Shown in pieces: positions 1,969 through 20,853 of a DNA stretch of 21,145 nt (the stretch's first letter is position 1; every line of letters starts with the position of its first letter). The DNA comes from a virus, in the IMG/VR virus record IMGVR_UViG_3300042891_001630, positions 1 through 21,145 of that record. One strand, 5' to 3'. Under the pieces are notes generated by a model. That model was not told where the DNA came from, did not search any database, and saw only the letters and a program-made list of their open reading frames with translations. The translations under genes and the position numbers were made by a program.

Positions 1969-4143
1969 TCATCCCTTGTTGCGAACTTCGTTTAATAGAT
2001 CATTATATTTCTTATCAAGTTCTTTGATTGCTTCAACTAGCAACACACAAATCTTTTCGTAATGAATTGTTTTGTATTGCTCATCAATTGGAGCTGGAAC
2101 AACAATTTCAGGTAGCACACCTTCAACTTGTTGTGCAGAGAGACCAATTTCTCTCTTAACTGGGTATCCTAAACTTTGTGCAACTTCATTTGCTTCGTAG
2201 TAGAATCCATTTAATGAATTTACTTTCGCAAGAGCATTTTCAATATTACCGAGCACTGTCTTCAATCTTTCATCAGAGTAGTATGCAGTAATGTCGCCAG
2301 TGGCACGAATTGCACCGCCGCCAGGAGCACCTGTACCAACTCCAAGACTATTAAATTGTACATCACTATTTGTATTCAATGATTGGTTTGCGCCTGGACC
2401 CTGTGGACCCTGTGGACCAGTTGCACCATTGGTTCCATTGGTTCCATTCGTTCCTGCTGGACCCTGTGGACCCTGTGGACCAGTTGCACCATTGGTTCCA
2501 TTAGTTCCTCCTGGACCTTGTGGACCCTGTGGACCAGTTGCACCATTGGTTCCATTGGTTCCATTCGTTCCTGCTGGACCCTGTGGACCTTGAGGTCCAG
2601 TTCCACCTGGACCTTGTGGACCTTGTGGACCAGTGTTACCTATTGGACCCTGTGGACCCTGTGGACCAGTTCCTCCTGGACCCTGTGGACCTTGCGGACC
2701 AGTGACACCTTGTGGTCCCTGCGGTCCAGTTAATCCTGTTGGTCCTTGTGGACCCTGTGGACCTTGTGGACCCTGTGGACCTTGTGGTCCAGCAGCAACC
2801 ACAAATGCAACATTTGCGTTGCCATCAGCTGATGCAGTCACAGAAACAGTAACAGCTGATGTGTTGACAAAGTTCAATTGTCTTGCAGTTAATGTTGATC
2901 CACTATTTGCAGAAACTCTAACTGTGTTTGCAGCATTGTTTGCTGCGGCATAAGCATCATTGGCAGTTGTTCTTGCAGTATTTGCTTGAAGATATGCGTT
3001 ATTTGCTTGATCGTAACCAGCATTGGCTTGCCCATAAGCAGCATTCGCTTGTGCATAAGCATTCAATGCTGTGTCAAAACTGTAAAATACAGTTCCATTA
3101 TCACTCCAACCCCATTTGTCTGAAGTCTCATTCCATCTAAGGAATGTATCAGTACCAGATCCGCGCTCTACTTTAACATCAGCATTTAAAGAAGGAGCTC
3201 CTGTTTGATTGGAGTTCAGAATAATTTCGCTGTCTTCAACAACAAGGCTTGCAACATTAAATGTTGTTGAATCACCTTCAACGAAGAGATTACCTTGAAT
3301 CGTAACATCACCACTAAACGTACCACCAAGTGTGGTCACGCTGAGGTTTGCTCGAGCATATGCATTATTGGCTTGTGTATAAGCAGTATTTGCTTGGGCA
3401 TAAGCATCATTGGCAGTTGTTCTTGCAGTATTTGCTTGTGCGTATGCATTTAATCCATTTGCATTTACGTTTGTTATGTTTGTATTAACGGTACTGAATG
3501 TAGTATTCATTGTAGCGAATGTTGTATTCGCATCAGAACGTGCAGTATTTGCTTGACCATAAGCATCATTGGCTGTTGTGCGTGCTGTATTTGCTTGATT
3601 GAATGCAGCATTGGCTTGACCATATGCATCCAATGCACTCTGGAAATTATACATTGTGGTGCCATCATCTGACCAGCCCCACTTGTCTGTTGTTTCATTC
3701 CAACGCAAGAATGTATTAGTGCTCGAGCCGCGATCAATTGTAATAGAGGCACTTAATGTTGGTGCGGCAGTTGTATTTGAATTGAGGATAATTTCATTAT
3801 CTTCAATTGAAAGTGTTGCAACATTAAAAGAAGAAATATCACCTTCGATAAACACATTACCATTAACGGTCAAATCTTGATCAACGTAAATGGTATTAGC
3901 ATTAACTCTTGTTGCGGTTAGTAAATTAGAAACGAAAACGTTACCGTTTCCTGTACTACCAATCGTCAATAATGGAGGGGTATTAGATTGACCAGCTGCA
4001 CTCAATAATGTGAGTGCACCACCATCTTTCACATAGTTTGAATTGCGAAGAATATTACGATCCTCAATCAGATCGTTTGTACCTGCACGCCATTCATTGA
4101 ATGTGTTCACCAACTGAATATGTGTAATATTTGCGTTTGCCAT
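1969..4143 (-). CDS. Tail fibre: duplicated modules, collagen-like stalk, S74 self-cleaving chaperone
   Basis: 724 residues. After an N-terminal part (1-90) come two copies of a module, about residues 94-198 and 283-388. Each holds GN.F.EGD...FNVA.L..ED.EIILNSN, a [15 protein letters not shown] block and AYxQANxA heptads. Residues 405-450 are beta-rich. Residues 452-584 are Gly-X-Y triplets, mostly GPQ, with [15 protein letters not shown] runs. The C-terminus (about 590-724) is a Peptidase_S74 intramolecular chaperone: YSDERLK gives the Ser623/Lys628 dyad, then a final coiled coil ([16 protein letters not shown]). In this family the chaperone drives trimer folding and then cuts itself off before the Ser. 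The ATG overlaps the stop of the 73-residue gene (TAATG), with AGGGG upstream. It is probably the host-contacting fibre. No sequence similarity to T4 gp12 or gp37 is visible beyond the general plan. Confidence 0.9.
2392..2790. repeat. Collagen-like triplet coding repeat with 63/54/63-bp higher-order units
   Basis: This encodes residues 452-584 of the tail fibre as a 9-base periodic array (glycine-proline-glutamine codons). Within it, 2396-2458, 2459-2512 and 2513-2575 are three near-identical units of 63, 54 and 63 bases. Each encodes GPQGPQGP followed by GTNG-type triplets; the middle unit lacks one GTN triplet group. All unit lengths are multiples of 9, so copy-number change keeps the Gly-X-Y register. 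Confidence 0.85.
2744..2778. repeat. 35-bp perfect direct repeat, copy 2
   Basis: Identical over 35 bases to 362-396 in the left-edge collagen-like gene, in the same orientation. It lies at the N-terminal end of this fibre's triplet stalk. Confidence 0.9.
2947..2988. repeat. 42-bp perfect direct repeat, copy 1
   Basis: Identical over 42 bases to 3397-3438. It encodes [14 protein letters not shown] in the second heptad region of the tail fibre (residues about 386-399). The two copies are exactly 450 bases apart, which is 150 codons and keeps frame. Confidence 0.9.
3397..3438. repeat. 42-bp perfect direct repeat, copy 2
   Basis: Partner of 2947-2988, encoding [14 protein letters not shown] in the first heptad region (residues about 236-249). 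A further, diverged copy of the same coding pattern lies near 3541-3600. Confidence 0.9.
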
Positions 4144-4368: not shown

Positions 4369-7170
4369 TTATCCTGCTGGTGTTGCGATCGCTCTATAAT
4401 TTCTTACATGAGGAACGACAGTTGGACTTTCAGCTGTCATCACAATCTTGATAGCGTAGTATTTAAACTTGTCGCCAAGAGGATAAGTCACACCATTCTC
4501 AACATATGAAATCTTGTTTACGTCAAGGCTTGGGCGATATTCAAGTTCAATACCCTGATTCTGATCCTTTGAGAAGTTATCATTAACTTTACTCATTAGT
4601 TGCCATTTCTTATCATCGAATGGCTGAGAATCTTCGCCTGATTTGACCTTATAGTAAACATTAATATCTGTTCCAACTGGACGATTGCAGTCTAGATAAA
4701 CTCTCAGATCACCAGCATCGAATCCATCAGCAAGGGTGATTGGTTTTGTAACATATCTAGCGCGACAGTTACCACCAGAGGCACCATTTTCACCTGCGAT
4801 AATTGCTGTAGCATTTATTGCAATTCCAGGTTCAGCAAATGTAATCGTTGGAGTAGTGTAGTACCCAGAACCTGGTTCATCAACAACAACAATCGATACA
4901 TTTCCTGTATATCCAGTAACAGAAGATAGAGCTGCCACATAAGCATTTGCTGTTGTACCGCCTGATCTGTTTGGTGCAGAGAACGTTACTACGATATTTG
5001 CAGCGTTTGTGTGCTCTCCAAGATTTGTGAAGGTGATGTCAGAAACGGAAATACCTGCATCATTCACTAGGTATTCTGTTGCCACGCCACTCAATCTCTC
5101 AATATCGATAGATGGAGAAACATAAGGATCACTTGTTGATAAGTCTGCTTTTACGAGCAATGATTCATTATTACCCGCTACAATTCTTCTTCTACGAGTT
5201 GAAGATTTTGTTGATGTTCCAACATCTTCGCTGAAATCATAAAATCTATCTTTACGAATGCTTCTCCAATCAGTATCGAATGCGCTATCGATTGAAGTCG
5301 ATTTGAAAGAGTAGTTGATGTTTGTTGGCTTAAAGTTATAGTCAACTGAGTGAATCAAGAGCGAATCAACGTTGATGTTTGATAGAATATTATCTGTCAT
5401 AAACGTGATTGTATTTGATGTCGTTGTCCAGTTAGCATACTTCACGCGGAACATCAAATCTTCATTTGGAATTGGTGTCCAATTGGAGGCATTTTGAGCC
5501 TTAAAGAAATCACCAATGTATGGTTGCTCTGAGACTCTTCTTGCTGGAGTTGTACCAAGAATCTCACCACCGATTTCTGCAACGAATAGTGCATAGTCTG
5601 GTGAAGATGTCGTGACAGTAATTGCATATTCCTTTGATGGTTTAACAATTACTGGCGGAGAGAACTTGAATGTTGTGATTGAAGCATCAGAGGTAGCATC
5701 TGGAATTGTTGATGTTTTAATATCAGTTGCTTCCACAATGCTTTGACCTAGAATCTTTTGTGAAGGTAATCCATTTTCGATCTCATTAATTGTAACCTTA
5801 ACTGGCAACAATAGATCACCACTGGATGGTTTCTCAGCAAAAAACAAATCTACTGCTTTAATCTGTAGTGCACTTAATTCAGAAGCCACACCATCTGCGT
5901 GTGTATTCGCAGTTGCTGGTGTAAAGAAGGTTTGTGAAAGAGGGAAAAACTTCTTATTATTCTTCAAAATGTCGTTGTTGTTAAGTGCAACTTCTTTTGA
6001 AGGTGCGATTGTATCATATGCCAGCCTTGCATAATCAGCAACGCTAGATTGATTACCAACCACTGAGTAATAATTAAATGCTCTCATTGTATAATTATCA
6101 GAGTCGCTTGTTGCTCCATCTGTAATTGTTAGTAATCGTTTGCCGACAGGAAAACTTGCACCAGCTGCTTCGGGAATATGGAACAGACCAGCAAGTGTTC
6201 CATAATCATCAACGACGTGATCTCCATATGAATACTTAGAATTAGATGTCACGGAGACATTTGCACTCAGAGTAATCATAAATCCATTAGCGGAGACAGC
6301 ATTAATTGTACGCTCTGCAGTTAGACCCACTCCAGCTGCGATTCTAAAAGTGTTACCAACTGCATTAGAAACGTTACCAGAAACGTGAATGATATTTGTA
6401 TCATTACTTGAAGCATATGAAACAACACCAGAGTAGTGATTGTATGAGGAGACAGTTGCTGTCTTACCTGCATTATACTTACTATAGATCGTTGAACTTA
6501 TTGGGAATCCGTTGGCAACAGTTTGTGTTGATCCCACATTTAATCTTGTCGTAGAATTATCGCGCAAGAAAATTACAGAGTTTGGATTAAACTTTCTGAA
6601 TGCACCATCAATTGGACGAATTGCCATGTAAGCATGTGAAGTGCTTGTATTCTGGTATCTTTCAACAACACCAGCAAAAGTAATTTGTCCAGAAATATTA
6701 TTAGAGGATGTCTGATAAATTACGTCTTGTTCTATGACTGTTGTAGTAGATAATGTGTTAGCAGCATATGGAGCAACATTAACATTAATAAAATTTTCAT
6801 TTAGATAAATGATATTATTAGATGTTGTGATTACTTTTGCAAATGCATTAGTAGTCGCATTAATAATTGGCTCATCTTGAAAAAACTGACTTGCAGAGGT
6901 TGATAATGCAAGTTCATTCGCTTTTTGAGTGAATCCCTTTACATTAACTTTGTCGAAGAAAACATTTGCAGTTTTGTCTGGGCAAAGTCCTTTGGCAACA
7001 AAGGTGACTTCCTGCGCACGCATGAAACGAGTGTATTGCACTTTTCTTGTGCTATCATCTGTTAGTGAACTTTTTAAACTATCTACGAATCCAGGAGGAA
7101 AGTAAGTCAGAGAAGCCCCGCCGTCTTCCTCAAATGCTCTTCTAATAGATGGTTCATATGGAATTGGCAT
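4369..7170 (-). CDS. Large virion structural protein (933 aa), baseplate-associated
   Basis: The N-terminus is MPIPYEPSIRRAFEEDGG. Residues 50-80 (RAQEVTFVAKGLCPDKTANVFFD) form the Q.V.FVAKGL.P.T....FFD signature seen in DUF4815-type marine phage structural proteins. Residues 437-580 (VDLFFAEKPSSGDLLLPVKV...RRVSEQPYIGDFFKAQNAS) form a jelly-roll-like unit common in the same group. Residues 705-795 carry a GSGYYTTPTITF beta module shared with neighbouring baseplate genes. The end (805-930) has DLRVYLDCNRPVGTDINVYY and VPHVRNYRA, a conserved C-terminal block. A STRRRRRIVAGN stretch lies near 656-667. GAGG sits 9 bases before the ATG, in a 17-base gap after the 1298-residue gene. With that neighbour it probably decorates or extends the wedges, in the place T4 uses gp9-gp12, whose sequences I do not see here. 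The family match is from memory; the precise role is unknown. Confidence 0.75.
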   Translation of the reverse strand: MPIPYEPSIRRAFEEDGGASLTYFPPGFVDSLKSSLTDDSTRKVQYTRFMRAQEVTFVAKGLCPDKTANVFFDKVNVKGFTQKANELALSTSASQFFQDEPIINATTNAFAKVITTSNNIIYLNENFINVNVAPYAANTLSTTTVIEQDVIYQTSSNNISGQITFAGVVERYQNTSTSHAYMAIRPIDGAFRKFNPNSVIFLRDNSTTRLNVGSTQTVANGFPISSTIYSKYNAGKTATVSSYNHYSGVVSYASSNDTNIIHVSGNVSNAVGNTFRIAAGVGLTAERTINAVSANGFMITLSANVSVTSNSKYSYGDHVVDDYGTLAGLFHIPEAAGASFPVGKRLLTITDGATSDSDNYTMRAFNYYSVVGNQSSVADYARLAYDTIAPSKEVALNNNDILKNNKKFFPLSQTFFTPATANTHADGVASELSALQIKAVDLFFAEKPSSGDLLLPVKVTINEIENGLPSQKILGQSIVEATDIKTSTIPDATSDASITTFKFSPPVIVKPSKEYAITVTTSSPDYALFVAEIGGEILGTTPARRVSEQPYIGDFFKAQNASNWTPIPNEDLMFRVKYANWTTTSNTITFMTDNILSNINVDSLLIHSVDYNFKPTNINYSFKSTSIDSAFDTDWRSIRKDRFYDFSEDVGTSTKSSTRRRRIVAGNNESLLVKADLSTSDPYVSPSIDIERLSGVATEYLVNDAGISVSDITFTNLGEHTNAANIVVTFSAPNRSGGTTANAYVAALSSVTGYTGNVSIVVVDEPGSGYYTTPTITFAEPGIAINATAIIAGENGASGGNCRARYVTKPITLADGFDAGDLRVYLDCNRPVGTDINVYYKVKSGEDSQPFDDKKWQLMSKVNDNFSKDQNQGIELEYRPSLDVNKISYVENGVTYPLGDKFKYYAIKIVMTAESPTVVPHVRNYRAIATPAG

Positions 7171-7187: not shown

Positions 7188-10100
7188 TTAATGGAGTTCA
7201 TAATCAAAATTTTCTGACCGTCTACCACCACCGCCACCAGTATCAGCAAAGATCTCAGCTGCAACGCTGATAGGTGCAGAATACCAGGTGTCAATGACAG
7301 CAACTTCTGGAGCAGCACCAGTAAAGTCTGGTATAGTCACAGAAAGTGGCATTGGGAATATTTGATCAATCAAAATAGCTGGGAATCCTGGGAACACGAT
7401 TGGTGGTGGTGTTGGTGGCGCTGATGGAGGTAGTGGGGGAGGTGGCAATACTAATACCTGACCAACATCTTCAGGTGAAGGAAATGGCAATCTATCCATA
7501 ATCACCTGTGGATATGTAACAATCGGTGGCTCTACAATTGGCGGTGGAGCCACATAAACTGGTGGAGGAGGAGGTGGAATGTATGGGACTGCAGGTGGTG
7601 GTACTGGTGGTGGTAACACTGGTTCAACTCTTGGAGTTAGAACTGGTGTATATACATCAATTGGTTGTGGTAGCGGCTGCACAATCACTTCAACCTTTGG
7701 TGGTGGAGGTGGTGTAACGTAACTGATAATATCAGGTGGAGGCAATACTGGTGTCTCAGAAATTACTATTGGTGGAATCACAACAGAGTAGTAGTGATCT
7801 GTAGATGGGAACAATCCAATATCTCCTTCAAATTTAGCAGCAAGAACTGGCGGAATCACTGCAGTGTTTTTGGTTGCTGCAGTTTGATTGTTGATAATAA
7901 GTTCATTTGAAGGGATAGACCACACCTGACGTTTTGGCAATTGTGGATCTTCTGGCTCAGTAAACGTTCTGTCATATGGAACCAAATTAAAGTTTACAGT
8001 TTTAGCATATGGTTTTAGTTTGCCGTTTTCAATTGAGCAAACAAAGTCTTTGTTAGACAAATCGCCGACAGAGAATCCAGTAAAGTTATCAGTGATGATA
8101 CCATACTTTTCTTTCTGCGTTGCATTATCCTCATAAAGGATCGTGGAATCTTTTGCCTTTGTTTCAACAAGGCTCAATGCAGAATAGTATTCGACATTTT
8201 TGATTCTCTGCTCAAGTTTACCGATATCGCGCATCGTGTAACGCTTGTTGTCAATAGACTTAACAGTGATATGATTTGGTGAACTTGTGTAGGCTGGAAT
8301 ATCCAACGTGAACAATGTCATTCCATCAGCTTGTTCTGGTGGGTATTGTGGAGCCTTAGATGGAATACCGCTGATAATCTTCAATTCTTTTGAAGAAGTG
8401 ATAACAATTTTATCTCTTCGTGGAAGATAATATTGATACGTCATTTCCATAGATTCATATGGAAGTGGAATGCGTGTTCCGAAGAATGTGTTAGCTGTTG
8501 TTCCAAGAGTTCTTGTTGGTCTGAAATCAATACAATCTCTCAATGGATAACTGGTTCCTTCGCTGGATTTAAACATTCCAATTTCGCCGTTTGCATATTG
8601 CGAAGATGGATATGAGTCAACGTTGAAGTATCCAGCTGTAGAGCTGTGCTCATAGTATTCGACAAAGACCACAATTCGACCGCGTGGTGGATTTCTTCCT
8701 GGTTTTAGAACCAATTTAGCGTGATCATAATACTCTGAAGTCTGACCTGTATCCAAGAAGAAACTTGAGGTCACATCAGTATAAGTTGTTGATGTTGGAT
8801 TACTGCTTGTGCTTCCAGAGTCATAAACCTTAATCAATTTATAAACGTCAGGAACAAACAACGAAGTTGTTCCACCAGGACTTGTATTGATTACAGAGGA
8901 GCTTGTGAACCAGATGTGTCCGTTCGTTGAATCGATGTAAACACTAGTGCACCCTGTTACAGCAGCACCATTTGTTGGCGCATCTGTTGAGCGAATGACA
9001 GAATTTGATGTGGTACCCTTGCGAGTCTTTGTGCGCTTGTTATAGTCTTCAGAATTATCCATCTTCACGCGAACATAAACATCTGCAGTGAATGAACCAT
9101 TCAAGCCAGAAGTGATTGTCAAACCAGTACTTGAAGTTCTTGTGATGCTGGATGGACCAATAATGTCACCGACTGCAACTGAAGTCGAGTTTCCGCTATA
9201 TGCTGTTGCTGTTCCAAGACTCTTGATAACAACAATGAAGTTTTGCGAGACAAGAGTTGATGAGATTGTGCTACCATCTGAACCATAATCTAGAACTTCA
9301 TTATTTGTTAATGAGAGCGATAGAACACCGCTTGCATTGAATGATTGTCCAGCAAAGAATCTGCTCGTAACATAATCTGCATTATCAATAGAATTATTTG
9401 CAATTTGTGGTTCAGGCAACTTAAAGATCAATGTCTTTCTATTTGAATCGTAAACAATTGTAGAACCAGTGATGTCTTTACTGTTATTTGAAATGTTCAT
9501 TGAAACATTGAATGCAGCCTTTGTTGCGATAACATCAACAAGAGAGTCAATATCTTTTGTGCTATAAAGAAGCGCGAATGTTTGACCCGAACCAATGGTT
9601 CCTGTGAATGGCAAATCAACTGTTGCAACTTTAGTTCCTCCGTTATATGATATAATTTTACGAACATCTCCTGAAGATCCACCAGAGGTGATTCTAACAG
9701 AAACGTTGGTATATGCTTGATCAAGAGTTGAATATGATGCTGGGAAGTTTAATGCAATCGTATTTGCACCAGCTCCGCTTGCTGTTACAGTATTTGATTG
9801 AAGAGCAACATCGCTCAAGTAAACGATAAATTCAGTACCAGAATTGCGAGTAATGTGTTTTAACTTTGCACTTCCCATGAATGTTGTGTTATACCCAACA
9901 GTTCCAGTTGTGTTCACATTGTTCTTTGGAACGCAGTGTAGTTCTAGTGTTGGTAGGCTTGCAGTATTTGAGAAACCATTTGCTGAACCGACGATTGAGT
10001 TGGCATACAAATAGTTACCATACTCTAGAGATAGATCGAAGTCAGTTGAGGTTTCTTTTGTTCTTGCTTTTACGCCATTGAGTCTTTGTGGACCGATGGC

Positions 10101-11084
10101 TTCGTATTCAAAACCCTTGACATACGCTTTTCCTGGCTCAACAACTGCAATAAAGTTGTCAGTGCATGCTGTGTTGGCTTCAAGAGAAACTTTGAATGGT
10201 GATACAGTGTAATCGCCTGACTCATCATAAGTGCGGCGAGCAAGAGTTTTTTCAAGTTCAGAGTAAATTGGATACTTAACTTGTTTTGTTACCACACCAT
10301 TTTCGATGCGGAGAAGTTCGAAGAACTTTGTATCGTCTACAGAGTCAAGTGCTCTCTTTGCGAGATCGAGTCTGAATTGATAGCGATGCGCACCAGGAGC
10401 CTGATAATTAAATGAAGCCTGTGCTGGATCAAGAAGATTGGCATCTGCGCTTTCGTCGATGATCTCTTCTACGATTTCAAGACCAACCCTATAACTTGGT
10501 ATGCTTGCATATGGATCGAGAACGATTGATTGTTCAGGAACTTGAACGAAGAATCCATCAACATAGAAAATGCCAGGTTGAATGGAAGCAATTGAACCAA
10601 TTCCTGTTGCGCTTGTAGGAATTGTTTTTGCTTCATTGCCACCAGATTCTGCATTAGAAATAACTTGGTTATCGCCAAATCTCGTTCCTCTCAAATACTT
10701 AACCATGAGTGTTGGGAAAGTTTGAGTTTCATCTGTAGCAACAACTCTTGCGCGAATCTTAGAAGTACCTGCGACATTACGAACAACAACATTGGTATAA
10801 TCTTCAACTTCAACGTCAGAACCGTTATAGGCTGTCTGTAATTTGATATAAGGAACGTTTAGATCATAGGTAATATGACCGCCAAATACTGGTGAACCAT
10901 TGTGGAAGATATGATCGCCAAACTGTTTGATTTGATTCTGAATAATCGTTTGGATTTGAGTCAATTCGCGAGCCTGAACAGCGTATCCAGGACGGAATAG
11001 AATTCTCATATAGTTATTTTCTTTCGCGCCGTTAGAGGCTAGAAAGTCGTCGTAAAATGGTTCTACATTAAAATCTATTGCCAT
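7188..11084 (-). CDS. Giant DUF4815-type baseplate/structural protein with proline-rich tail (1298 aa)
   Basis: Residues 6-70 hold FNVEPFYDDF, RILFRPGYAVQARELTQIQ and IIQNQIKQFGDHIF, the N-terminal signature of the DUF4815 phage structural family. The middle (about 100-930) is beta-rich and Ser/Thr-rich. Residues about 945-1060 (NKRYTMRDIGKLEQRIKNVEYYSALSLVE, cut here into motifs NKRYTMRDIG, LEQRIKNVEYY and GFSVGDLSNKDF) are the conserved C-terminal block of that family. Residues 1104-1235 are a proline-rich segment with PPPPP runs. The last residues are DTGGGGGRRSENFDYELH. TAGGAA precedes the ATG in an 11-base gap after gp8. In related phages such proteins are virion components near the baseplate. 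I infer a wedge-periphery or fibre-attachment role; enzymatic motifs are absent. Confidence 0.8.
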   Translation of the reverse strand: MAIDFNVEPFYDDFLASNGAKENNYMRILFRPGYAVQARELTQIQTIIQNQIKQFGDHIFHNGSPVFGGHITYDLNVPYIKLQTAYNGSDVEVEDYTNVVVRNVAGTSKIRARVVATDETQTFPTLMVKYLRGTRFGDNQVISNAESGGNEAKTIPTSATGIGSIASIQPGIFYVDGFFVQVPEQSIVLDPYASIPSYRVGLEIVEEIIDESADANLLDPAQASFNYQAPGAHRYQFRLDLAKRALDSVDDTKFFELLRIENGVVTKQVKYPIYSELEKTLARRTYDESGDYTVSPFKVSLEANTACTDNFIAVVEPGKAYVKGFEYEAIGPQRLNGVKARTKETSTDFDLSLEYGNYLYANSIVGSANGFSNTASLPTLELHCVPKNNVNTTGTVGYNTTFMGSAKLKHITRNSGTEFIVYLSDVALQSNTVTASGAGANTIALNFPASYSTLDQAYTNVSVRITSGGSSGDVRKIISYNGGTKVATVDLPFTGTIGSGQTFALLYSTKDIDSLVDVIATKAAFNVSMNISNNSKDITGSTIVYDSNRKTLIFKLPEPQIANNSIDNADYVTSRFFAGQSFNASGVLSLSLTNNEVLDYGSDGSTISSTLVSQNFIVVIKSLGTATAYSGNSTSVAVGDIIGPSSITRTSSTGLTITSGLNGSFTADVYVRVKMDNSEDYNKRTKTRKGTTSNSVIRSTDAPTNGAAVTGCTSVYIDSTNGHIWFTSSSVINTSPGGTTSLFVPDVYKLIKVYDSGSTSSNPTSTTYTDVTSSFFLDTGQTSEYYDHAKLVLKPGRNPPRGRIVVFVEYYEHSSTAGYFNVDSYPSSQYANGEIGMFKSSEGTSYPLRDCIDFRPTRTLGTTANTFFGTRIPLPYESMEMTYQYYLPRRDKIVITSSKELKIISGIPSKAPQYPPEQADGMTLFTLDIPAYTSSPNHITVKSIDNKRYTMRDIGKLEQRIKNVEYYSALSLVETKAKDSTILYEDNATQKEKYGIITDNFTGFSVGDLSNKDFVCSIENGKLKPYAKTVNFNLVPYDRTFTEPEDPQLPKRQVWSIPSNELIINNQTAATKNTAVIPPVLAAKFEGDIGLFPSTDHYYSVVIPPIVISETPVLPPPDIISYVTPPPPPKVEVIVQPLPQPIDVYTPVLTPRVEPVLPPPVPPPAVPYIPPPPPPVYVAPPPIVEPPIVTYPQVIMDRLPFPSPEDVGQVLVLPPPPLPPSAPPTPPPIVFPGFPAILIDQIFPMPLSVTIPDFTGAAPEVAVIDTWYSAPISVAAEIFADTGGGGGRRSENFDYELH
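7380..7775 (-). other. Proline-rich segment of the 1298-residue protein
   Basis: Residues 1104-1235 are about one-third proline, with repeated PPPP and PPPPP blocks separated by Val-, Ile- and Tyr-containing spacers (for example VYVAPPPIVEPPIV). Such composition favours an extended polyproline-II rod rather than a globular fold. The + strand shows matching GGTGGTGG tracts. Confidence 0.85.
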
Positions 11085-18416: not shown

Positions 18417-18428
18417 TATTTATTTATG
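18417..18428 (-). promoter_or_regulatory. Candidate late promoter, overlapping CATAAATA/AATAAATA
   Basis: On the minus strand two overlapping NATAAATA motifs (18421-18428 and 18417-18424) sit at the gp5 stop codon, about 20 bases before the gp25 ATG, with the GAGGAA ribosome site between. Position and form fit a T4-type late promoter for the gp25-6-7-8 run. Confidence 0.6.
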
Positions 18429-20853
18429 TGTTGGAAGGACGGAGAATGGTAACAATTGGGCATCCTCCATCACCAACAATAGATACATCGCCAATACGAC
18501 CGTCTCCGATGTCTAATCTTGAGTCTGGTGGTTGCGCTCCACCGACGAATCTAAGAGTTCCATTAATATTTTCATAAACAAAGTTGACGTGATCATTAGC
18601 CCAAAGAACCACGTCTCCTGCTCGAGCATCCTCTGGTTTTACACGACTAAATCTATAATCTTCAAATCGAATTTCAAGATCTCTTGGATGTGGAGTTTGA
18701 ACATAGCGATATCCATTTTGCTTTAGACCATAATTAACGAATGCCATCGCCCATACAGTCTGGTCGCTTTGAGTCCAATATTCGAGAGTAAACCCTAAAT
18801 TTCTCCACATGCTTAGAATATTAGGATTAGAAGGCTGAATCTCTCCTGTTAACTCGAATCCAGTTTCTCTCCAATAGCCATTCGCCGCTAATTCTAATTG
18901 TTTGTCCAACCACTTTGATATGTTTGCAGTCTCGTTAATTAAAATTAGACTTTCGCCAACAGTATTCTTATAGATTAGATCCGAACCAGACTTCGGAGAG
19001 GTTGCAATATATCTCTTTACATTTCTATAAGTGGCTGGGAAATTGTATGGATTTGCCAAATAGTCCTTTAAAATCCTATTGTTGTCTCTAATGATATCAT
19101 CGCTCAATTTGACAACCTTATCAGCTTCTAAAAACTTCTGCGTTGCAGTAGGTGTTCCTCTGCGTGGAGGAGCAGTTATTGTCAATGGAGATCCTGTTGT
19201 GCTATGCGTTGCCGCTATAATGGTTGAAGTTTGCGCAATGTCGAATTTGAGAGTATTTGCTTTGATATTAAAGGCATCTCCGACAGAGAAATTAACATTT
19301 CCGCTAACTGAAGCATTTAGATCATTCTCAACTTGCAAGAAACAATCACCTACGATCTTTACATGTGCATTTGATTCTAATACAACGTTCACCTTTCCAG
19401 CGACATAAATGTGATCGTCGCTCATTACTAACTTATAATTATTTTTAACAACCTTCTCAACCTTTGTTCCACTTGGATACCATTCAATAAAACTTCCAGA
19501 GCGATGGGCTAGATGTACGCGCTCGTTATATGGCGTATCGTCCATCTCAAATACGTGACCAGACTCAGTCTCTTTAACTTTATTGTGTGGATATTCTGCA
19601 GAATAGGCTGGACTTGGTTCAGTCCAGGACTCATTATTCGCCCCAATTGCGCTTACTGGAGATCTTTCTCTAAACTTTTGAATAAGAGTCTTATCTTCAT
19701 ATGATACAAGATCGCTCAATGAAGACTTACCAATTTCTTCTGGTGTTGGATATTTTAATGAAAGCGCATTTTCATCTTCAGCAATATTAGATTCGTGGAC
19801 TTGTACGCCAATGCCTGCGCCTGCAACAATAACAGGACTTGTATTCAAGGCTGTGTTTGCGCGTGTAGAGGCAATACTAGATCTTGGTATTGATTTAAAT
19901 AGACTTGCAGCGATATGCGCAATTCCTTCCTCACTCTTTAAATATTTTCCTGTGGATGATTTCAACATCTCAGAACTTAAAAGTTGGGCAGCACGAATTA
20001 CGTCACCCGATGTCACCGCAGATCTAACGCCAGATTTCTCAAAGTCTGTTCTTGTTCCAAGATGGTATGCATTCAAGACTAATCCAGCTTTTTGAGGAAC
20101 AGTCAAAGAATCCCATGTTGTTGAGCCAATTGAGTCTCGTGCAGAAACAATGGTGTTAACTATATCCATATCTAATAAAACTTTTGCTTGAGACTTTGTT
20201 ATTCGAGTCTCATAACCAATCAGACCATTAACCGCAACATTTTCGCCATTTCTGAGTGGAATATATCCTTGGTTTAATTCTCTTTGCGTAATTTTATGAT
20301 TATAACCGATAATGATTTGTCCATCATCTGTCAAAGATGGACGAGCATTTAATGATAATGGTAAATGCAATATGATACTATCAGTGACTAATTTTGATAC
20401 GCCAACACCATCATTAATAATGTTTCCGCTGATTGCAGTCGGGTGCCCTGATCTTGCTTCTGGATAATCAATTGCGACTGGTTTTTTCGGCGACTTTCTA
20501 ATCTTCTCAGCAGTCCTCATGTCTCCAAACCCCACACCTTCTGGTGGAGTTTGATTATTGAATCCTGGCAAAACACCTAACATGGCAGGTGCCTGACTGA
20601 ATGTGCCGTCTAAGAAAAATCCAATGACATACTCACCCTCTTTTGGAGTAGAGAATGAATCGTTATTATTAATTGAATAAACAGGAATCGCCCAAGGAAG
20701 ATCTTCTGTTGGGATGAGGCTCTTGTCTTCGCTATGGACACCAAAAATCCTTACCTTACATCTTCCAATTTTTTCAGGATCGTCGCGGTCTTCAACAACA
20801 CCAACCCACCAAATGAAACCCTCAAATCCTATGAAATTCTTTATCTGTTTCAT
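18424..20853 (-). CDS. 5: Central spike protein gp5, with degenerate lysozyme-like and CHAP-like domains
   Basis: 809 residues against 575 in T4. Residues 14-95 are the OB-fold: VGVVEDRDDPEKIGRCKVRIFG, PTEDLPWA and GEYVIGFFLDG match T4 gp5. Residues about 158-300 resemble phage lysozyme (IIIGYNHKIT, ITKSQAKVLLDMD, LTVPQKAGLVLNAYHLGT), but no Glu stands where T4 lysozyme Glu11 is expected. Residues 430-545 form the spike (SGHVFEMDDTPYNERVHLAHRSG, GTKVEKVV, then short beta-helix repeats). After a linker, residues about 640-809 resemble a CHAP or NlpC/P60-type amidase: VWAMAFVNYGLKQNGY, ARAGDVVLW, DHVNFVYE, FVGGAQ, GDVSIV. The catalytic Cys position is Ala702; His755 is kept. The protein should pierce the outer membrane; whether it cuts peptidoglycan is doubtful. 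The ATG overlaps the hub stop (ATGA). Confidence 0.88.
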   Translation of the reverse strand: MKQIKNFIGFEGFIWWVGVVEDRDDPEKIGRCKVRIFGVHSEDKSLIPTEDLPWAIPVYSINNNDSFSTPKEGEYVIGFFLDGTFSQAPAMLGVLPGFNNQTPPEGVGFGDMRTAEKIRKSPKKPVAIDYPEARSGHPTAISGNIINDGVGVSKLVTDSIILHLPLSLNARPSLTDDGQIIIGYNHKITQRELNQGYIPLRNGENVAVNGLIGYETRITKSQAKVLLDMDIVNTIVSARDSIGSTTWDSLTVPQKAGLVLNAYHLGTRTDFEKSGVRSAVTSGDVIRAAQLLSSEMLKSSTGKYLKSEEGIAHIAASLFKSIPRSSIASTRANTALNTSPVIVAGAGIGVQVHESNIAEDENALSLKYPTPEEIGKSSLSDLVSYEDKTLIQKFRERSPVSAIGANNESWTEPSPAYSAEYPHNKVKETESGHVFEMDDTPYNERVHLAHRSGSFIEWYPSGTKVEKVVKNNYKLVMSDDHIYVAGKVNVVLESNAHVKIVGDCFLQVENDLNASVSGNVNFSVGDAFNIKANTLKFDIAQTSTIIAATHSTTGSPLTITAPPRRGTPTATQKFLEADKVVKLSDDIIRDNNRILKDYLANPYNFPATYRNVKRYIATSPKSGSDLIYKNTVGESLILINETANISKWLDKQLELAANGYWRETGFELTGEIQPSNPNILSMWRNLGFTLEYWTQSDQTVWAMAFVNYGLKQNGYRYVQTPHPRDLEIRFEDYRFSRVKPEDARAGDVVLWANDHVNFVYENINGTLRFVGGAQPPDSRLDIGDGRIGDVSIVGDGGCPIVTILRPSNT

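Follow-up and report, generated by a model that had tools for sequence, protein, structure and literature searches.

A T4-like central spike with a lysozyme-fold domain and a peptidase-like tip that both appear to lack canonical catalytic residues

The central spike protein gp5 encoded in a 21,145-nucleotide stretch of viral DNA (positions 1 to 21,145 of IMG/VR record IMGVR_UViG_3300042891_001630, here called the window) contains two domains that resemble peptidoglycan hydrolases: a lysozyme-like domain in its middle and an NlpC/P60-CHAP-like domain at its C-terminal tip. Neither domain has the canonical set of catalytic residues in any row of the window's clade that was examined, which bears out a preliminary description of the window in which both wall-degrading domains of the spike were said to look inactive. 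The reading favoured here, with a probability of about 0.7, is that both are former peptidoglycan-hydrolase modules, kept as folds without canonical catalysis, that would serve as structural or wall-contacting parts; the spike likely no longer cuts the wall. Gene 5 (18424..20853; this and all other gp5 coordinates lie on the minus strand) encodes an 809-residue baseplate hub or central spike protein, identified from its translated frame and from PHROG, Pfam and PDB matches.

In the lysozyme superfamily the general-acid glutamate on the core helix is invariable, and in T4-type lysozymes the core segment as published, residues 2–11, has Glu11 as its last residue (PMC2976769). Residues Glu11, Asp20 and Thr26 of T4 lysozyme (T4L) correspond to Glu184, Asp193 and Thr199 of T4 gp5 (PMC3004832). 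In the AlphaFold2 model of the window's domain, the core helix spans gp5 residues 148–163 and the next strand residues 167–172. Because hhalign alignments to T4 e, T4 gp5, P22 gp19, Cronuts gp5 and K1E gp35 all stop short of the Glu region, the Glu11 place was taken from the model, which puts it at about Leu164, and from a gapless count off the GxGH motif, which puts it at residue 166. The structural alignment, given by its end residues only, pairs model residues 35..204 with T4L residues 1..157, and its use here assumes that the first ten residues are gapless.

The alignment set was made from 70 frames, merged to 35 sequences, of which 28 rows were kept in addition to the window; frames L081, L083, L104, L120, L126, L128 and L133 were dropped as contained in longer rows. 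Residue counts for the lysozyme-like domain refer to 20 rows with 16 distinct domain sequences, the window included. At residue 164 (20362..20364), the approximate place of T4L Glu11, these rows have Leu (8), Val (9) or Ile (3), and none has an Asp or Glu anywhere at residues 159–171; residue 172 is Glu in two. The earlier claim that the domain lacks an evident catalytic glutamate, made for the window, holds in all 20 rows. For the Asp20 place, the preliminary description had named Thr or a shifted Asp. Gapless alignment with T4 does give Thr175, with an acid at 176 in 16 of the 20 rows, but the structure instead gives Ser173 (20335..20337; register uncertain by about two residues), which is Ser in 20/20 rows. 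The Thr26 place is taken by Ile181 (20311..20313), where the rows carry Ile (8), Val (5), Tyr (4), Met (2) or Leu (1).

Two other residues of T4L are conserved throughout. His186 (20296..20298) and Asp230 (20164..20166) align with T4L His31 and Asp70, respectively, and each is present in 20/20 rows; in T4L, Asp70 is the salt-bridge partner of His31. The model and the alignment together indicate that the lysozyme fold is kept, and its general acid lost, across the clade. The pattern is not a single-contig error, because it is family-wide over many contigs. The region covered by the preliminary description, 19954–20382, corresponds to gp5 residues 158–300; in the numbering used here, its motif IIIGYNHKIT is residues 180–189 and its 'Glu191' is Glu192.

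The tip domain comprises residues 625–809 (18427..18981) and was assigned from TIGR02594 and from alignment with sister and outgroup proteins. Its TIGR02594 match covers residues 673–774 (2.4e-06) and, at 27.9 bits, falls below the curated cut-off of 70.55; sister records, at 41 bits, also fall below it. These sister records, L129–L142, are a second group of gp5 proteins returned by a scan with the tip domain, and they have an OB fold, a beta-helix and a homologous tip (38–42% identical). Those that reach both parts have about 83 residues between the OB and beta-helix matches. In the two sister members scanned, no lysozyme match was found, whereas CHAP matched in one (7.8e-05) and NlpC/P60 in the other (0.014), both below cut-off. 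A PDB search with the tip-domain profile returned nothing useful, and the window tip gave no tblastn match against phage records.

A Cys and a His are catalytic in the NlpC/P60 superfamily. Tip residues were counted in 22 window-clade rows (18 distinct sequences), 6 sister rows and 2 outgroup rows, the latter being proteins of Vibrio phage RYC and Microcystis phage Mae-JY30. The catalytic Cys place, occupied in the window by Ala702 (18748..18750), holds Cys in 6/6 sister and 2/2 outgroup rows but in 0/22 window-clade rows, where Ala (16), Ser (4), Thr (1) and Asp (1) are found. The single Asp is that of L109, against Ala, Ser or Thr in the other 21 rows. Similarly, the Asn of GGNQ, which is probably the third catalytic residue of the tip family, is replaced by Ala773 (18535..18537) in the window; it is kept in 6/6 sister and 2/2 outgroup rows and in 0/22 window-clade rows (Ser 15, Ala 4, Val 2, Cys 1). 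His755 (18589..18591), the catalytic-His equivalent, is kept in all 30 rows, including 22/22 of the window clade. The Ala702 change reported earlier is thus confirmed and extended, Cys and Asn both being missing in 22/22 rows. As judged from these alignments, the tip is related to the NlpC/P60-CHAP-like family and lacks the canonical catalytic set.

Both the lysozyme-like domain and the tip look to be under purifying selection. The ratio of nonsynonymous to synonymous substitution rates (dN/dS), estimated for eleven chosen pairs that are few and partly non-independent, was about 0.04–0.11 in the informative comparisons. For the lysozyme-like domain it was 0.111 between the window and L004 (dS 0.20), 0.048, 0.081 and 0.094 within the triplet L086-L087-L088 (dS 0.62–0.74), and 0.095 and 0.079 in more divergent pairs (dS 2.0 and 2.8, respectively). 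For the tip, the same triplet gave 0.075, 0.066 and 0.075 (dS 0.79–0.81) and a more divergent pair 0.044 (dS 1.6). Values for the OB domain were 0.03–0.12 in similarly divergent pairs. Ratios from very close pairs were uninformative (up to 0.28 at dS ≤0.025) or undefined, and those from saturated pairs were undefined. Where the preliminary description had left the domains as merely inactive, this strong conservation suggests that both still serve some purpose.

In T4, steric hindrance by the beta-helix keeps the lysozyme cleft blocked (PMC3004832). Lying after the OB fold and ahead of the beta-helix, the lysozyme-like domain of the window's gp5 would form a non-catalytic collar or spacer, most likely one that stays docked against the beta-helix, like the T4 domain prior to activation, or touches glycan without cutting it, or both. 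A docked arrangement is suggested because the Glu11 and Thr26 places are now mostly hydrophobic. The catalytically dead tip would cap the needle in the stead of a PAAR protein, a role that fits the finding of no PAAR match in 15/15 records searched (12 from the window clade and 3 from the sister clade). On contraction, the needle would pierce the wall mechanically, or another enzyme would open it.

The same 15 records, which are contigs of unknown completeness, were searched for eight families of wall enzymes. Phage_lysozyme, Amidase_2, SLT, Glyco_hydro_108, CHAP and Peptidase_M15_4 matched in none of them. NlpC/P60 gave four below-cut-off matches, all in the gp5 tip and one of them in the window clade, and Peptidase_M15_3 matched in a single sister record only (4.1e-21). 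In the 12 window-clade records, no wall-hydrolase family matched outside gp5. This absence is weak evidence, because the records are such contigs and because the search was blunt: PF00959 missed even the gp5 domain, and the Glyco_hydro_108 control was recovered in 1/14 genomes, below cut-off. The Peptidase_M15_3 match belongs to a 412-residue frame in L148 (the record of L138; 158639-158932), a candidate endolysin.

A related proposal casts the lysozyme-like domain as a peptidoglycan-binding module, whose dead cleft would act in a lectin-like manner and hold the needle to the sacculus. It is compatible with two retained, non-catalytic folds and forms the other branch of that reading. The SpmX muramidase domain, one of the fold matches (6h9d), offers a precedent, being reportedly, from the title of Randich 2019 only, a co-opted and detoxified phage lysin, and the conservation seen in dN/dS would be in keeping with such a role. 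Against it stand the mostly hydrophobic residues at the Glu11 and Thr26 places, and binding of this kind is judged rather unlikely; it is not at odds with the docked collar.

Several observations weigh against two inactive hydrolases, and some of them would support a lysozyme-like domain that is still an enzyme, works through a non-canonical acid (158, 176 or the invariant Glu192) and has allowed the tip peptidase to be dispensed with. At position 158, 16/20 rows carry an acid and 4/20 Asn; position 176, which is opposite an Asp of K1E gp35 in the alignment, is Asp in 9 rows, Glu in 7, Asn in 3 and Ser in 1; and Glu192 is found in 20/20. A non-canonical acid may therefore exist at 158 or 176, and a second acid may be retained at 176 in part of the clade. 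The tip Cys is missing in exactly the clade that bears the lysozyme-like domain, which could have taken over the wall-cutting role, and the low dN/dS values would also suit an active enzyme. Furthermore, the hairpin register is uncertain by about two residues in the model, the dN/dS pairs are few, as stated above, and the tip's catalytic loss is read from sequence, since its AlphaFold2 model has a predicted local distance difference test score (pLDDT) of 36.

Residual catalysis is nonetheless improbable. In the model, position 158 falls at about T4L residue 5, in mid-helix, and for this reason, and with Asn in 4/20 rows, D158 is disfavoured as a substitute for Glu11. Position 176 is Asn or Ser in 4/20 rows, Glu192 sits after the hairpin, and none of the 20 rows keeps the canonical residue at the Glu11 or Thr26 place. 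Two folds kept without canonical catalysis remain the preferred account.

The middle domain of gp5 is predicted to have a lysozyme (GH24-like) fold over residues ~140–325 (19879..20436), as assigned from the AlphaFold2 model, fold matches, PF00959 and phrog_4290. The model, made from a 10-row alignment, has a mean pLDDT of 73.7. Means over ten-residue blocks are 78–93 across gp5 residues 150–289, followed by 69, 55 and 77 to residue 319, and pLDDT is below 50 at residues 120–147, 306–308 and 322–335. The top PDB matches from Foldseek (best 5.4e-5) are phage or prophage peptidoglycan hydrolases, the SpmX muramidase domain and T4 lysozymes. With VIA-align, the phage peptidoglycan hydrolase 9kbs gave a Z of 16.1 (root-mean-square deviation 2.3, 146 aligned), 6et6 a Z of 15.8 (2.7, 149 aligned), SpmX 6h9d a Z of 13.8 (2.9, 145 aligned) and T4 lysozyme 3fi5 a Z of 12.5 (2.9, 148 aligned). 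A single row in the fold-match lists, 8b2s, is named GH24; the remaining rows presumably belong to GH24 too.

If the domain were a look-alike fold with no lysozyme relative, its missing Glu would be meaningless. Such a view could draw on the lack of any Pfam lysozyme match for the window's own gp5 domain and on the weak hhalign results against T4, P22 and Cronobacter-phage lysozymes. However, PF00959 (Phage_lysozyme) matches the gp5 domain in 4/10 relatives by hmmscan (best 1.2e-4), phrog_4290, a 'lysozyme domain-containing protein', matches 7/10, and the lysozyme region of K1E gp35 aligns with the profile of the domain family at an hhalign E-value of 1.1e-7. With the Z scores to phage muramidases over ~146–149 residues added, a mere look-alike is very unlikely. 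When the domain alignment was used as a profile against the PDB, two matches resulted, both weak: the SpmX-type lysozyme 6h9d (E 1.8) and 2efk (E 0.12), an unrelated protein. At E values up to 1, SP6-like phages (80 records, best E 1e-3) were the only cultured-phage group that the domain matched. No relative turned up in one scan of bacterial genomes, and a viral scan with just the core recovered the same clade again (29 loci), with nothing related from outside it. Finally, decay of both domains into relics with no role left would account for the catalytic residues missing from each, but the dN/dS values, which lie in the OB-domain range, and the many invariant columns make it extremely unlikely.

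A tree was built on the OB and beta-helix parts (35 rows, 252 columns; the kept rows L001, L004, L106, L109 and L127 left out) and rooted on the Cronobacter-phage gp5, a positive control in which PF00959 matches at 2.2e-10. The 18 lysozyme-bearing gp5 rows form one clade (support 98/98), the 6 sister rows form another (100/97), and the two clades group together (100/99). No lysozyme match was found in the outgroup gp5s X1, Moby, KVP40, L008 and L010, by a test that may miss diverged domains, as the window's own domain evades Pfam. The middles of X1 and Moby gp5 are long, low-complexity, helical-looking sequence. The gp5 proteins L008–L012 leave no room for a lysozyme domain between OB fold and helix, the gaps in L009 and L012 being short, as in L008.

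With a T4-type spike as the root, these data favour a gain of the domain on the window-clade branch. Repeated loss may be the alternative history, as several outgroup branches are long and the tree cannot separate gain from loss. Taking the sister state as ancestral, the replacements of Cys and Asn fall on the window-clade branch too. At slightly under even odds, the clade would have gained a lysozyme-fold domain after a locally domain-less ancestor and made both it and the peptidase tip non-catalytic, leaving an enzyme-free needle of two detoxified hydrolases.

The remainder of gp5 is that of a T4-like central spike, with OB domain, beta-helix and baseplate neighbourhood all present. The whole frame matches the PHROG baseplate hub/tail lysozyme family (E=8e-80). 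The OB-fold domain occupies residues 1–112 (20518..20853), by the alignment with T4 gp5 and by an N-terminal match to Gp5_OB (PF06714), which at 3.7e-06 is over the Pfam cut-off. The triple-stranded beta-helix needle was placed at residues ~409–545 (19219..19629) by alignment with T4 gp5. In the PDB search, T4-type gp5 chains match the OB fold and the beta-helix, the latter at residues 410–496 and 470–555, and not the middle domain. Proteins resembling gp25, gp6 and wedge components lie downstream of gp5 (Pfam, PHROG), and the frame before it encodes a tail protein (phrog_350), perhaps gp27-like.

Spikes of relatives differ in other respects. In the gp5 proteins of L078–L088 that reach both parts (about residues 541–810), ~165–195 extra residues, with beta-helix-like repeats, lie between the beta-helix and tip matches, and needle length seems to vary among relatives. 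VanY was matched in the OB protein of Melnitz (L090:4986-8029) at 1.1e-4, and near the end of its neighbour at 0.043, and Peptidase_M15_3 near the C-terminus of L010:694-2574 at 0.017, all below cut-off. Spike tips may swap enzyme types among gp5 relatives.

Elsewhere on the minus strand of the window, two collagen-repeat proteins (GPQGPQ) are encoded at 1-465 and 1969-4143, the second and larger with a Peptidase_S74 (chaperone of endosialidase) domain close to its C-terminal end. Adjoining them is a 371-residue protein (850-1965) with a C-terminal Hint-like (intein/hedgehog-type) module, for which the Pfam matches to Hint (3.2e-06) and AXH (1.7e-07) are both just under cut-off. The genes at 4369-7170 and 7188-11084, also on the minus strand, match successive parts of phrog_358 (2056 positions), as if one large DUF4815-type structural protein were split in two genes.

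T4 gp5 has, like the window's gp5, an OB fold, a lysozyme-fold domain and a triple beta-helix in that order, within a T4-like baseplate block. It keeps Glu184, Asp193 and Thr199, where the window's gp5 has approximately Leu, Ser and Ile, and T4 requires its spike lysozyme in the course of infection (PMC3004832). In the PDB search the match to T4 gp5 stops at the beta-helix, with no NlpC/CHAP-like tip matched, unlike the window's gp5. T4 also has an annotated PAAR-motif gene, 5.4, whereas the records searched here gave no PAAR match.

The gp5 proteins of KVP40, X1, Moby and related phages share the OB fold and beta-helix and show no lysozyme match; the annotation of the KVP40 record states that its gp5 is without the T4 lysozyme domain. 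Lysozyme-less gp5 spikes are ordinary among T4-like phages, so an enzyme-free spike is only a moderate surprise. In contrast to those phages, the window clade has a lysozyme-like domain that is present, conserved and without catalytic residues. The sister clade shares the OB fold, the beta-helix and a related tip with the window's gp5; it differs in having no lysozyme match (two members scanned) and an intact tip Cys-His-Asn set in 6/6 rows. What stands out is that two apparently dead hydrolase folds are conserved within one spike. Among the titles and abstract openings searched, no gp5 with both domains dead was found, although such a description may still exist in the literature. Sullivan 2010 brings up gp5 solely to locate a gene, and the word 'lysozyme' is absent from its main text (PMC3037559).

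A partial parallel is gp15 of Anabaena phage A-1(L), a myophage hub protein with lysozyme, endoglucanase and peptidase domains, located in the hub and not in the spike; the last two domains are reported to be active, and the lysozyme domain is not described there as inactive (PMC10966104). The lysozyme domain of K1E gp35, an SP6-like virion protein, resembles the window's domain only past the Glu region and belongs to a different, podophage protein. Spike domains are often annotated as lysozyme by position, and activity cannot be taken for granted from the label 'baseplate hub and tail lysozyme'. The window's lineage would separate the mechanical or binding roles of wall-enzyme folds from cutting; its apparent pseudo-enzymes, natural and conserved, make with the intact-Cys sister clade a direct comparison set. 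The SpmX muramidase domain of Asticcacaulis shares the lysozyme fold and is part of a bacterial protein, not of a virion. If the clade did gain the domain and make both modules non-catalytic, the enzyme-free needle would be a virion parallel to the reported co-option of a phage lysin by SpmX.

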